The notes beneath the pieces are model-generated. The model had not been told where the DNA came from. It saw only the letters and a list, made by a program, of their open reading frames with translations, and did no database searches. From Jiella avicenniae (GTDB lineage Bacteria > Pseudomonadota > Alphaproteobacteria > Rhizobiales > Rhizobiaceae), in NCBI RefSeq assembly GCF_021390325.1, contig NZ_JAJUWU010000019.1, positions 62,001 through 126,000 on the forward strand: 64,000 nt of DNA, written 5' to 3'. Shown here one piece after another: positions 47,771 through 64,000 of the stretch. The position numbers and the translations under genes are program-made. Within the stretch, counting starts at the first letter, position 1. The number at the start of each line of letters is the position of its first letter.

Positions 47771-47860
47771 CAGCGGTATTTAGGCGATGCGCCGGCGAAG
47801 CGAAACCGGGCCGTTTCCCCCTGGAAGGCTTCGGGTGCCGATTTCGATCCCGAGAACGAC

Positions 47861-47968
47861 AAAGCCCGTCGGGGGAGGACCGACGGGCTTTGCTTTTCTG
47901 ACCTGCATTTGGGAGGAGGATCTGCAGGTCGTATCCGCTCCGGCCCGGGAGGAGGTGGGCCTTTGCGA
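47861..47968 (-). ncRNA. CcsR/cuckoo-type sRNA unit 4 (last transcribed)
   Basis: Read on the minus strand, three hairpins follow in order. The first has stem GGGCC/GGCCC (47942-47961) around ACCTCCTCCC. The second has stem GACCTGCA/TGCAGGTC (47900-47930) with a CCTCCTCCC loop. The third has a 12-bp stem AAAGCCCGTCGG/CCGACGGGCTTT (47861-47891) with loop TCCTCCC. The last stem carries flanking A and T runs not present in the other units and looks like the array's terminator. The middle stem uses different bases from units 1-3, yet pairs perfectly, so the structure is conserved by compensatory change. Confidence 0.75.
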
Positions 47969-47996
47969 AACCTTGAAACTTTCGGGTTCCGGATGA

Positions 47997-48098
47997 GCCC
48001 GCCGGGGGAGGACCGGCGGGCTGCATCGGATGGTCTGCCAGTTGGGAGGAGGTCGGCAGACCGCTTTCGCCTCGGCCCGGGAGGAGGTGGGCTTCGGC
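47997..48098 (-). ncRNA. CcsR/cuckoo-type sRNA unit 3
   Basis: Three hairpins on the minus strand: GCCGAAGCCC/GGGCCGAGGC at 48069-48098 with a CCTCCTCCC loop; GGTCTGCC/GGCAGACC at 48032-48062 with a CCTCCTCCC loop; GCCCGCCGG/CCGGCGGGC at 47997-48021 with loop TCCTCCC. Nearly identical to units 1 and 2. Each pair of units is joined by a short linker with an internal GGAAC...GTTCC or similar stem. Confidence 0.78.
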
Positions 48099-48125
48099 AA
48101 ACCTTGAAACTTGGGTTCCGGATGA

Positions 48126-48227
48126 GCCCGCCGGGGGAGGACCGGCGGGCTGCATCGGATGGTCTGCCAGTTGGGAGGAGGTCGGCAGACCGCTTTCGCC
48201 TCGGCCCGGGAGGAGGTGGGCTTCGGC
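48126..48227 (-). ncRNA. CcsR/cuckoo-type sRNA unit 2
   Basis: Minus-strand hairpins at 48198-48227, 48161-48191 (GGTCTGCC/GGCAGACC) and 48126-48150 (GCCCGCCGG/CCGGCGGGC), with the loops CCTCCTCCC, CCTCCTCCC and TCCTCCC. This is virtually a copy of unit 3, 129 bases further upstream in the transcript. Confidence 0.78.
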
Positions 48228-48256
48228 AAACCTTGGAACTTTCGGGTTCCGAATGA

Positions 48257-48358
48257 GCCCGCCGGGGGAGGACCGGCGGGCTGCATCGGATGGTCTGCCT
48301 ATTGGGAGGAGGTCGGCAGACCGTATTCGCCTTGGCCTGGGAGGAGGATGGCCTCGGC
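48257..48358 (-). ncRNA. CcsR/cuckoo-type sRNA unit 1 (first after DUF1127)
   Basis: Minus-strand hairpins at 48329-48358 (an imperfect GCCGAGGCC/GGCCAAGGC stem around ATCCTCCTCCCA), 48292-48322 (GGTCTGCC/GGCAGACC) and 48257-48281 (GCCCGCCGG/CCGGCGGGC). The first two loops carry CCTCCTCCC and the third TCCTCCC. It begins 20 bases after the DUF1127 stop codon, so it is most simply processed from the same transcript. The first stem is the most diverged of the four copies. Confidence 0.78.
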
Positions 48359-48378
48359 GAAACTTGGAAACTCTCGGA

Positions 48379-48522
48379 TTACATAACCGTCCGGCGAGCG
48401 ACGGTCGGGATGTCGGTGCGCGCGATGCCGAGATCGGCGAGCTCGCGCTGCGACAGACGGTTGAGCTCGTTGACGGTCTCGCGGTAGCGGCGCCAGCTCT
48501 GGTACGAACGAACAAGGTTCAT
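48379..48522 (-). CDS. DUF1127 small protein heading the sRNA array
   Basis: A 47-residue protein with a classic DUF1127 sequence: a basic N-terminal helix (SYQSWRRYRETVNELNRLS) followed by QRELADLGIARTDIP. AAAGGAGG lies about 7 bases before its ATG. In Rhodobacter sphaeroides the DUF1127 protein CcaF1 is encoded immediately upstream of the CcsR sRNAs, which are processed from the same mRNA, and CcaF1 binds RNA. The same order here, with four CCTCCTCCC-hairpin units beginning 20 bases after the stop, makes it a likely counterpart. The frame is too short for usual ORF cut-offs. Confidence 0.85.
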   Translation of the reverse strand: MNLVRSYQSWRRYRETVNELNRLSQRELADLGIARTDIPTVARRTVM

Positions 48523-48931
48523 GTCGGAACCTCCTTTCAGATTTCACTTCAGCCACTTCGGGAGAGCGTCTTGCCGCTCTGTCCCGTTTCGTTGAGAGCA
48601 AAATATGATGGCCGGGCGTCCCCCGCTAGACGGAAGTCTGCATGGCTGCTCTGCGCATTGTGCAATGCAGCAAAGCTCGGAGATCCTCCAGCAGTGCCAG
48701 ACACTTGCAGGCGGATTCTGAAATTCGGGAGGACGTTTCGATGAGGGGGTTGGTCAACAACAGTGCTTTATCCGCTTCGCCCCGATGGTGCGGAGCGGAG
48801 GCGGTCGCGTCGCGGCTTTGGGCGGGAGATCGGGGAATTCTGCGGTCCAACCCCGCGGTTTTGCCCTTTCGTGGCCGAATTCACGATGATATAGAGGCCC
48901 GCGCTCGAGACCTCGGCGGCCGACGCGCTCT
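48523..48931. other. intergenic region between DUF1127 and tRNA-Leu
   Basis: About 410 bases carrying the promoter of the minus-strand DUF1127-sRNA transcript and that of the plus-strand tRNA-Leu/tig side. An inverted repeat GCATTG-TG-CAATGC lies at about 48655-48668, overlapping the 12-base motif TGCAATGCAGCA (48661-48672), which also occurs upstream of the small gene at 34.6 kb. I could not fix a -35/-10 pair with confidence, and I see no gene. Confidence 0.4.
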
Positions 48932-49102: not shown

Positions 49103-50464
49103 ATGCAGGTTACGGAAACCAAGGCCGAGGGCCTGAAGCGCGAGATCGAGATTGTCGTGCCCGCCTCGGACCTTGAGGCGCGCCTTCAGACCCGCCTCTT
49201 CGAGGCCAAGGACAAGGTGCAGCTGAAGGGTTTCCGGCCCGGCAAGGTGCCCGTCGCCCATCTTCGCAAGATGTACGGCAAGTCGCTGATGGCCGAGATC
49301 GTCAACGAGATCCTCAACCAGACGCCGGGCTCGGTCATTTCCGACCGCAAGGAGCGGGCGGCGATGCGCCCCGAAATCGCGATGACCGAGGACGAGGGTG
49401 AGGCCGACAAGGTCCTCGCCGGCCAGAGCGACTTCAAGTTCACCCTGTCCTACGAGACCCTGCCGGACTTCGAGCTCAAGGATTCGAGCGGCATCAAGAT
49501 CGAGCGGCCGATCGTCGAGGTGTCCGAGGAGGAGGTCGACGAGCAGGTCGAGCGGATCGCCGAGAACGCCCGCACGTACGAGGACAAGGACGGCGCCGCC
49601 GAGAAGGGCGACAAGGTCACCGTCGACTTCGTCGGCAAGATCGACGGCGAAGCCTTCGAGGGCGGTTCGGCCGAGGACAGCGATCTCGTCATCGGCTCCG
49701 GCCGATTCATCCCCGGCTTCGAGGAGCAGTTGATCGGCACGGAGAAGGGCGGCGAGAAGGTCGTCGAGGTCACCTTCCCCGAGGATTACGGCGCCGCCCA
49801 TCTGGCCGGCAAGGCCGCGACCTTCGACGTCACGGTCAAGGCCGTCCAGGCGCCGACCGACACGGCCATCGACGACGAGATGGCGAAGAAGCTCGGCCTC
49901 GACTCCCTCGACAAGCTCAAGGAGATCGTCCGCGACCAGATCCAGAGCCAGTACGGCATGGCGACGCGTCAGAAGGTCAAGCGCCAGCTGCTCGATGCCC
50001 TCGACAAGGAGTACGACTTCGCGCTCCCCGAGAAGCTGGTCCAGGCCGAGTTCGACAACATCTGGAATCAGGTCCAGCGCGAGCTGACCGAGAGCGGCAA
50101 GTCCTTCGAGGACGAGGACACCACGGAGGAGAAGGCGCGCGAGGACTATCGCAAGCTCGCCGAGCGCCGCGTCCGTCTCGGACTGGTACTGTCGCAGATC
50201 GGCGAGAATGCCGGCGTCGAGGTCGGCGAGGAAGAGTTGCAGCGTGCCGTCTTCGAGCAGATGCGCCGCTATCCGGGCCAGGAGCAGGAAATCCTGAAGA
50301 TGTTCCAGGAAAATCCCGACGCCATCCAGAGCATTCGCGCGCCGCTCTACGAGGAGAAGGTCGTCGACCATCTGCTCGCCCAGGTCGAGGTCACCGACAA
50401 GACGGTCTCGAAGGAGGAATTGATGGCCGAGGACGAGATCGAGGAAAAGACCGTCGAGGCCTGA
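49103..50464 (+). CDS. tig: trigger factor
   Basis: A 453-residue ribosome-associated chaperone and prolyl isomerase. The N-terminal ribosome-binding domain carries the signature region [17 protein letters not shown] (about 46-62). The FKBP-type isomerase domain spans about 160-250 ([31 protein letters not shown]). The helical C-terminal chaperone arms complete it. It catches nascent chains at the ribosome exit. A strong terminator follows at 50496-50522. Confidence 0.94.
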
Positions 50465-63460: not shown

Positions 63461-63542
63461 AGAAGCGTCGATGTCGGCGCTTGATCGCGATCGATTGCGC
63501 CGCCGATTGCAATGCGCCTGATTTCGGGGAGGAGGACCGGAG

Positions 63543-64000
63543 ATGTCCAATAACGAAGTGCCAGAGCTGGAAACGGTCCTGCCGAGCCATCGCGACCTCT
63601 ATTACGCCGGCGGCTGGCATGCGCCGGCGGGCGGCACATACGAGGATACCGGCAATCCCGGAACCGGTGAGACGCTCGGCGCCGTGGCGTCCGCCGGATC
63701 GGCGGATGTCGATGCCGCCATCGCGGCCGCGCGAACGGGCTTTCGCGAATGGCGCGACGTCCTTCCGCTCGAACGGGCGCGCATCCTGAAGGAGATCGCC
63801 GCGCTTCTGAGGAAGCATGGCGACGAACTCGCCCTCATCGACGCCGCCAATTGCGGCAACCCCTACGGCGAGATGCGCGGCGACGCGGTGATCGCGGCCG
63901 CGCAGATGGACTTCTTCGCCGGTCTCGTCACCGAGATGAAGGGCGACACGATCCCCATGGGCCCGGACCGGCTGAACATGACGGTCCGCGAGCCGCTCGG
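63543..64000 (+). CDS. aldehyde dehydrogenase, N-terminal part (runs off the window)
   Basis: The first 152 or so residues of an NAD(P)-dependent aldehyde dehydrogenase. The N-terminal strands contain DLYYAGGWHAPAGG, EDTGNPGTGETLGAVASAGSADVDAAIAAARTGFREWRD, then the helix RARILKEIAALLRKHGDELALIDAANCG. The catalytic Cys and Glu lie beyond the window edge. GGGGAGGAGG lies upstream of ATG 63543. It may act with the preceding operon, but the repeat element between them suggests a separate transcript. Confidence 0.85.
   Translation, partial: MSNNEVPELETVLPSHRDLYYAGGWHAPAGGTYEDTGNPGTGETLGAVASAGSADVDAAIAAARTGFREWRDVLPLERARILKEIAALLRKHGDELALIDAANCGNPYGEMRGDAVIAAAQMDFFAGLVTEMKGDTIPMGPDRLNMTVREPL

Follow-up and report, generated by a model that had tools for sequence, protein, structure and literature searches.

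A DUF1127-linked locus with four tandem ar14 (NfeR1-type) units of anti-Shine-Dalgarno hairpins in Jiella avicenniae

We analyzed a 64,000-nucleotide stretch of the Jiella avicenniae genome (contig NZ_JAJUWU010000019.1; hereafter the window) that carries, on its minus strand, a DUF1127 gene followed by four tandem units, each folding into three hairpins with anti-Shine-Dalgarno (aSD) motifs in their loops. This locus is an expanded member of a known sRNA family rather than a new system, and we consider it quite probable that it is a DUF1127-ar14 operon (NfeR1-type, CIN1/cuckoo) whose sRNA part has expanded to four units. The evidence for this comprises a family match, a compensated structure, a conserved gene order, a conserved upstream box, one U-tailed end and a repeated linker.

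Results

Organization of the DUF1127 gene and hairpin array

Read directly, the minus strand from 48522 to 47857 holds the DUF1127 gene, a short gap and the four tandem units, in that order. The open reading frame (48379..48522, minus strand) encodes an arginine-rich small protein of 47 amino acids that matches PF06568 (DUF1127) with 55.2 bits, against a cut-off of 23.3, and is preceded by the Shine-Dalgarno sequence AGGAGG (48530..48535, minus strand). A gap of 13 nt separates its stop codon from the ar14 match that begins the array (48365), and 17 nt lie between the stop codon and the first stem (48361). The flanking genes are the divergent tig (trigger factor; 49103-50464, plus strand) and trmFO (47770-46349, minus strand), and both were within reach in nine of the 10 loci from nine other genomes of the genus; the exception is L058, one of the two G008 contigs, which stops at the contig end. 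A DUF1127 candidate preceded the array in the window and in 9 of these 10 genus loci. In locus L051 (genome G001) the DUF1127 frame near position 2197 seems broken, giving two tblastn pieces; this may be a sequencing error, G001 being listed as 84% complete.

The four units, of 116-117 nt each, occupy 48365-47857 of the minus strand. Unit 1 (48250..48365) has its hairpins at 48361-48326, 48322-48292 and 48282-48256, unit 2 (48119..48235) at 48230-48195, 48191-48161 and 48151-48125, unit 3 (47990..48106) at 48101-48066, 48062-48032 and 48022-47996, and unit 4 (47857..47973) at 47961-47942 (inner stem only), 47930-47900 and 47893-47859. Eight exact copies of CCTCCTCCC, out of 70 genome-wide, lie in the array (G000:C6:109911-110347), and the third loops read TCCTCCC, four in all with one per unit. 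Folded alone, each unit formed three hairpins whose loops display the aSD motif, with z-scores of -8.4, -4.8, -4.5 and -6.3 for units 1 to 4 and none of 200 dinucleotide shuffles equally stable in any of the four cases; the fold of the whole array had a z-score of -12.1, with 0 of 100 shuffles equally stable. The open reading frame, its PF06568 match, the eight plus four aSD loops and the folding together confirm the DUF1127-linked four-unit hairpin array that an earlier, sequence-only reading of this DNA had described.

Units 2 and 3 are identical across 117 aligned bases, so that compensation within the window is mainly that of units 1-3 against unit 4. The count of four is a minimum, as draft assemblies can merge units that are nearly the same. 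A run of N lies within the array of Jiella pacifica (L056:2136-2230); tandem units seem to defeat assembly, which would make unit counts minima. A small hairpin that is possible in the inter-unit spacer of the window was not kept in relatives and was rejected.

Fixed loops and compensating stems

We aligned 63 units from the 10 genus loci and from 14 of 20 further loci; the alignment omits L075, L078, L084, L085, L089 and L090, as well as contig L059, a duplicate, and the first unit of L056, which a run of N interrupts. Unconstrained folding gave exactly three aSD hairpins in all four window units and in 59 of the 63 units overall. In these 59 units the six loop-adjacent pairs were kept at 84%, 96% and 100% in hairpins 1, 2 and 3, a level raised by construction, since the closing pair predicted for each unit served as the anchor of its arms, compared with 55%, 47% and 61% in a control with 3' arms shuffled among units. 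The same 59 units contained 46, 34 and 15 distinct arm pairs for the three hairpins, and up to six standard pair types at a single stem position; related sequences inflate such covariation counts, but the gap to the shuffled control is still large.

The first loop was an invariant CTCCTCC in all 63 units, which come from 24 loci. The loops stay fixed while the stems change by compensation, both between units, where the stem pairs quoted in the sequence-only reading proved real, and in related genomes, where that reading had expected the same. RNAalifold, applied to the whole-unit alignment, recovered only hairpin 3, probably because stem lengths vary, and the loop-anchored count was used instead.

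Assignment to the ar14/NfeR1 family

At gathering level, Rfam gave two ar14 matches in the window. In a relaxed search all four units matched ar14 (RF02344) end to end, with 51.8-74.3 bits, against a gathering threshold of 58.8, and E-values between 3e-13 and 2.8e-8; units 4 (74.3 bits) and 1 (66.5 bits) lie above that threshold and units 2 and 3 (51.8 bits each, E 2.8e-8 in a 1.2-kb search) below it. CcsR1 (RF02791) matched the first two hairpins of each unit with 21.4-28.4 bits, below its gathering threshold of 65.3. Matches to 6C RNA, the rnk leader and hammerhead were rejected, being below their cut-offs.

The sequence-only reading had proposed a locus of the cuckoo/CcsR type. A DUF1127-linked array of CCUCCUCCC loops of the cuckoo/CIN1 kind, with signs of selected RNA structure, stands from that proposal; the CcsR1 score does not support its CcsR part, and by covariance model the units belong to ar14/NfeR1. 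The cuckoo RNA family and the CIN1 locus were reportedly described by Reinkensmeier and Giegerich in 2015. The third hairpin, which had been taken for an additional part, is standard in ar14/NfeR1, described with three aSD hairpins in the relevant passages of PMC10746234, and is additional only relative to CcsR. The third loop UCCUCCC is shorter than the CCUCCUCCC described for ar14.

The likeness of the window to ar14/NfeR1 (Smr14C2, SmelC397) extends from the three hairpins with aSD loops and their fast-changing stems to the place beside tig and the LsrB-type site upstream, which are found, according to published passages, in NfeR1 of Sinorhizobium meliloti. In the table of del Val 2007, as excerpted, candidate C14 is flanked by SMc02051/tig with strands '< >' (PMC2780559); C14 of S. 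meliloti is the later NfeR1, judged by the coordinates in a published passage, and, according to an excerpt of a later survey (PMC2573895), a second unit, sm7', is predicted for the C14/NfeR1 intergenic region. Comparing the tig side, we take the window array to be the positional counterpart of NfeR1. It differs from NfeR1, which in the passages at hand is one sRNA transcribed from a sigma-70 promoter of its own and ended by a U-run terminator (PMC10746234, PMC2780559), in having four units after a DUF1127 gene, one terminator-like end and the shorter third loop.

The gene order is that of the CcsR locus. In Rhodobacter sphaeroides, as far as the consulted sections of PMC10253847 go, the DUF1127 gene ccaF1 (RSP_6037) is followed by four homologous RNAs, CcsR1-4, in one operon with one 3' terminator, and the window likewise has a DUF1127 gene directly upstream, four units and a single terminator-like end, the latter with a negative terminator scan. 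It departs from CcsR in its score with the CcsR1 model and in its three hairpins per unit. The same sections apply the name CIN1 to short DUF1127 genes with CcsR-like sRNAs (PMC10253847), and this association of a short DUF1127 gene with aSD sRNAs is what we found here.

Distribution and linkage to DUF1127

Among the matches listed, ar14 was present at E<=0.01 in 46 of the 61 genomes searched (genus 10/10, rest of the family 26/27, other families of the order 10/24) and over the family cut-off in 34 of the 61, whereas none of 14 controls matched at E<=0.01. Arrays of the genus hold 2-6 aligned units (37 units in 10 loci), and most loci of Phyllobacterium, Brucella and Ochrobactrum have three or four hairpins, about one unit. 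The DUF1127-first order is not the rule in the wider family: ar14 units stand before the DUF1127 candidates in L072, L073 and L079, and the two alternate in L082, L086 and L087.

We also scanned named genomes with a DUF1127 profile and kept the best 80 of 543 confirmed relatives; the profile is silent on DUF1127 genes at large, since it was built from array-linked DUF1127 proteins. At least seven of the 80 named loci duplicate genomes of the other set (L091=G006, L092=G003, L093=G008, L094=G007, L102=G005, L095=G035, L097=G031), and the two sets are therefore kept unsummed. In every one of the best 80 of 543, the strand of the DUF1127 gene carried one or more aSD hairpins, with a mean of 4.8 per locus there and 0.05 on the other strand. 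In 71 of them at least two aSD hairpins followed DUF1127 in direct succession; the other nine comprise four with one hairpin, four where the hairpins follow a second DUF1127 gene and one where they lie further off. Neighboring genes in the best 80 of 543 were trmFO in 67, tig in 43 and either of them in 69. Two records, titled Bacillus subtilis SK6B4 (L141) and Xylophilus sp. (MAG; L145), show a DUF1127-array-trmFO locus like that of Pseudochrobactrum and Brucella and are probably mislabeled or contaminated.

The succession of at least two hairpins directly after the gene in 71 of the best 80 of 543 named loci, and the complementarity of the AGGAGG at the DUF1127 start to the CCUCCU of the array loops, would also fit hairpins that work mainly in cis, either by pairing with DUF1127's own AGGAGG or merely by stabilizing that mRNA through 3' structure, so that the array would be a feedback device and not a source of trans-acting sRNAs. 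We judge this to be unlikely, because NfeR1, which is of the ar14 family too, acts in trans on other mRNAs according to the published passages, because L071, L075 and L078 have ar14 but no adjacent DUF1127 by two screens (which can miss divergent genes), and because twelve loops seem more than a cis switch needs.

Possible exchange among units

Within a locus, inner units of the genus resembled each other more closely (0.926) than they did across loci (0.808). In six of 10 genus loci the last unit formed a separate line, with a similarity of 0.59-0.66 to its own inner units and of 0.85-0.97 to the best last unit elsewhere; in the other four it was not distinct. This pattern suggests that inner units may be exchanged among each other, with the terminator-bearing unit often, though not as a rule, held apart. 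Near-identical tandem copies that resemble each other more within than between loci would also be expected of a repetitive, REP-like DNA element that is not a functional RNA. This explanation has hardly any likelihood in our view, given that the genome outside the array contains no ar14 match better than E 0.008 and no dispersed copies were seen, that the tig/trmFO position is kept in 69 of the best 80 of 543 named loci, and that compensatory changes accompany fixed loops.

An LsrB/VtlR box upstream of the DUF1127 gene

A 35-nt block, TTGCTGCATTGC...CAGCCATGCA (48639..48673, minus strand), lies upstream of the gene and is recognizable in all ten aligned genus genomes, ending in CAGCCATGCA or TGCCATGCA. 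It includes the putative LsrB/VtlR box CAGAGCAGCCATGCA (48639..48653, minus strand), which agrees at 13 of 15 positions with the Brucella VtlR box CAATGCAGCCATGCA quoted from PMC12595884 and has, on the other strand, all fixed positions of the consensus GCAT-N3-TG-N3-T quoted from PMC8844928 and PMC7486931. A candidate -10-like element, CATATT (48602..48607, minus strand), appears as CATA or CTTA throughout the genus alignment.

The box recurs with at most three mismatches in 67 of 95 upstream regions, a set that includes repeated loci; the counts were 1 of 95 for shuffled regions and 3 of 221 for stretches from other parts of the loci. Counted once per named locus, it was found at this stringency in 52 of the best 80 of 543, in 51 of them at -150 to -95; the strict consensus was found in 49 of the best 80 of 543 (1 of 80 when shuffled) and was missing in 31.

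The J. avicenniae genome encodes a full-length LsrB-like protein (C18:16343-17236, L227) with 67% to our LsrB yardstick, the next best LysR protein having 34%; the yardstick is the LysR protein beside ar15 in a relative (G028), named LsrB by that neighborhood. The gene next to the lsrB-like gene is, by our reading, trxB-like (thioredoxin reductase). The box upstream and the lsrB orthologue in the same genome place the array in a predicted LsrB/VtlR regulon, in which binding and activation by LsrB would be expected; passages of PMC10746234 describe NfeR1 as bound by LsrB and NtrC. No match to ar15 (AbcR), an LsrB partner, was found at E<=0.1 in the J. avicenniae genome; it was present in six of seven family genomes searched, over the cut-off in four, and in each of the four loci read a LysR gene adjoined it. 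As to control, the sequence-only reading's view of a CcsR counterpart needs correction, for the window has an LsrB/VtlR box where the R. sphaeroides locus, according to sections of PMC10253847, has an RpoHI/RpoHII promoter.

In Brucella and Agrobacterium, the DUF1127 genes activated by VtlR have the same box upstream. Among the best 80 of 543, 17 loci have Brucella, Ochrobactrum or Falsochrobactrum in their titles; every one of them had the box, allowing up to three mismatches, together with three or more same-strand aSD hairpins, which lay directly downstream in 16. These loci come from non-classical species and may differ from the named VtlR targets. The published accounts, in the parts consulted, differ in that they speak of small proteins, and for atu1667 the passage in PMC7486931 leaves open whether a small protein or a regulatory RNA is involved.

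A single terminator-like end and a repeated linker

The last third-hairpin (47859..47893, minus strand) has a TCCTCCC loop, a stem extended by GCAAA/TTTGT and then a U-rich tail, features that make it the likely only terminator of the transcript. In 81 loci, which are related and hence non-independent, the T count of the nine bases after third-hairpin-like stems was 1.75 for inner (n=73) and 5.1 for last (n=64) hairpins; third hairpins were recognized with a simple rule on loop and stem, so that in single-unit loci some of the inner entries represent other hairpins. Within the window, the tails of the inner hairpins read TCATTCGGA or TCATCCGGA and that of the last TTTGTCGTT. The terminal tail UUUGUCGUUCU is no clean U-run. 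A terminator scan left the minus strand without a call; its one call, on the plus strand, fell on the last hairpin, and this number agrees with what shuffles give (1 found, mean 1.4).

The linker GTTT[TC] precedes hairpin 1 in 30 of 37 genus units and is missing in seven, compared with 0 of 370 control windows taken from within the structured units, a sequence of different make-up. It is present in three of the four window units (unit 2 is without it) and in six of nine true first units after DUF1127. The simplest reading of these features is one terminator and repeated sites at which the transcript may be cut.

Alternatively, the units could be separate sRNA genes, each having a promoter and a terminator to itself, which is how NfeR1 of S. 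meliloti is transcribed according to the published passages (PMC10746234, PMC2780559). We give this very little probability: a sigma-70 consensus scan of 47780-48850 found no promoter-like site (a weak argument, as the scan missed the candidate main promoter too), the inner third-hairpins are without U tails, and the inner spacers are short and share the linker motif.

Under the preferred reading of a single DUF1127-ar14 operon, an LsrB/VtlR-type LysR activator would switch on one promoter upstream of the DUF1127 gene, and a single transcript would span this gene and the four units and end at the last, U-tailed hairpin. An endonuclease would then cut at the A/U-rich linker ahead of the units to give RNAs of about 115-130 nt. 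The precedent is R. sphaeroides, in which RNase E and the DUF1127 protein CcaF1 mature the CcsR RNAs (PMC10253847, in part), and the DUF1127 protein of the window might have a comparable role; RNA binding by DUF1127 proteins is disputed, and those of Agrobacterium are reported to act through protein contacts with PhoR (both from passages of PMC12501420). Through their CCUCCUCCC and UCCUCCC loops these RNAs would base-pair with G-rich Shine-Dalgarno regions and keep several mRNAs from being translated, the mode of action shown for NfeR1. An array with more units would yield more RNA from every transcript, a gene-dosage effect.

Candidate targets

The three aSD motifs of NfeR1 are described, in passages of PMC10746234 and PMC8844928, as redundantly blocking mRNA translation, with many transporter mRNAs among the targets. 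The arrangement GGGAGGAGG-N2-10-ATG has 11 matches in the J. avicenniae genome and one in the reversed control, and by our reading of the frames three of the 11 are likely gene starts, those of an aldehyde dehydrogenase, a sugar ABC-transporter ATPase and a 275-aa universal-stress-protein-like protein with no NCBIfam family match. The first of these three sites, a Shine-Dalgarno-like GGGAGGAGG in the window (63527-63545, plus strand), is the full complement of the CCUCCUCCC loop and makes the gene behind it, betaine-aldehyde-dehydrogenase-like, a candidate target of the array. This aldehyde dehydrogenase was matched in one of eight congeners, and the sugar ABC ATPase had matches of 41-53% in five of eight, which may be paralogues.

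Among the matches listed, GGAGGAGG-N4-9-ATG was above control in all nine genomes, an excess that ordinary Shine-Dalgarno use predicts. The start region of ntrB, an NfeR1 target, contains only the 5-nt GGAGG in the J. avicenniae genome. Nine ntrC loci from eight genomes gave an ntrB-like start in five (four genomes), with GGAGG as the longest GGGAGGAGG match in three of these and GAGG in two.

Discussion

Earlier publications cover both DUF1127-CcsR-type loci (CIN1, cuckoo RNA) and the binding of LsrB at NfeR1. The less expected part is that LsrB/VtlR control, a DUF1127 gene and an aSD array appear to be joined in one operon. The literature that we searched gave no report tying VtlR/LsrB-activated DUF1127 genes to downstream aSD RNAs and no paper treating VtlR and cuckoo together, statements that hold for that search, and DUF1127 is not mentioned in the parts of PMC10746234 consulted. 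Place, partner gene and structure connect NfeR1 and CcsR, which have been studied separately. One prediction from the arrangement is that transcripts of LsrB/VtlR-activated DUF1127 genes also contain aSD sRNAs, in which case mutants of such genes would have to be read differently.

We offer, as a tentative proposal that has somewhat less than an even chance of being right, that NfeR1, CcsR1-4 and the VtlR/LsrB-activated DUF1127 genes all represent one ancestral redox-responsive operon, in which LsrB/VtlR would switch on DUF1127 together with a variable number of aSD RNAs, and copy number would be tuned by unequal exchange of inner units, the terminal, terminator-bearing unit often standing apart. 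If this were true, part of the effects of VtlR-activated DUF1127 proteins would be the work of co-transcribed RNAs, and the array would act as a brake of adjustable strength on translation that starts at strong Shine-Dalgarno sites. The 2-6 units present within one genus form a natural dosage series.

Other loci with aSD loops were seen in the genus. A second candidate sRNA lies between putA and the formate-tetrahydrofolate ligase gene (L061:1780-2010, plus strand; G000:C48:155779-156009); a search of L061, L064 and L066 against Rfam found no match for it at gathering level. Aligned from four genus genomes (that of J. avicenniae, G004, G007 and G001), it has TCCTCCC loops, a U-tailed terminator and a conserved upstream AACCTGTGCTA. 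A third kind, also without an Rfam match at gathering level in the three loci searched (L062, L063 and L068), occurs at five genus loci (L062, L063, L065, L067 and L068) and consists of two aSD hairpins, the second terminator-like; in L062 it adjoins an amidohydrolase gene.
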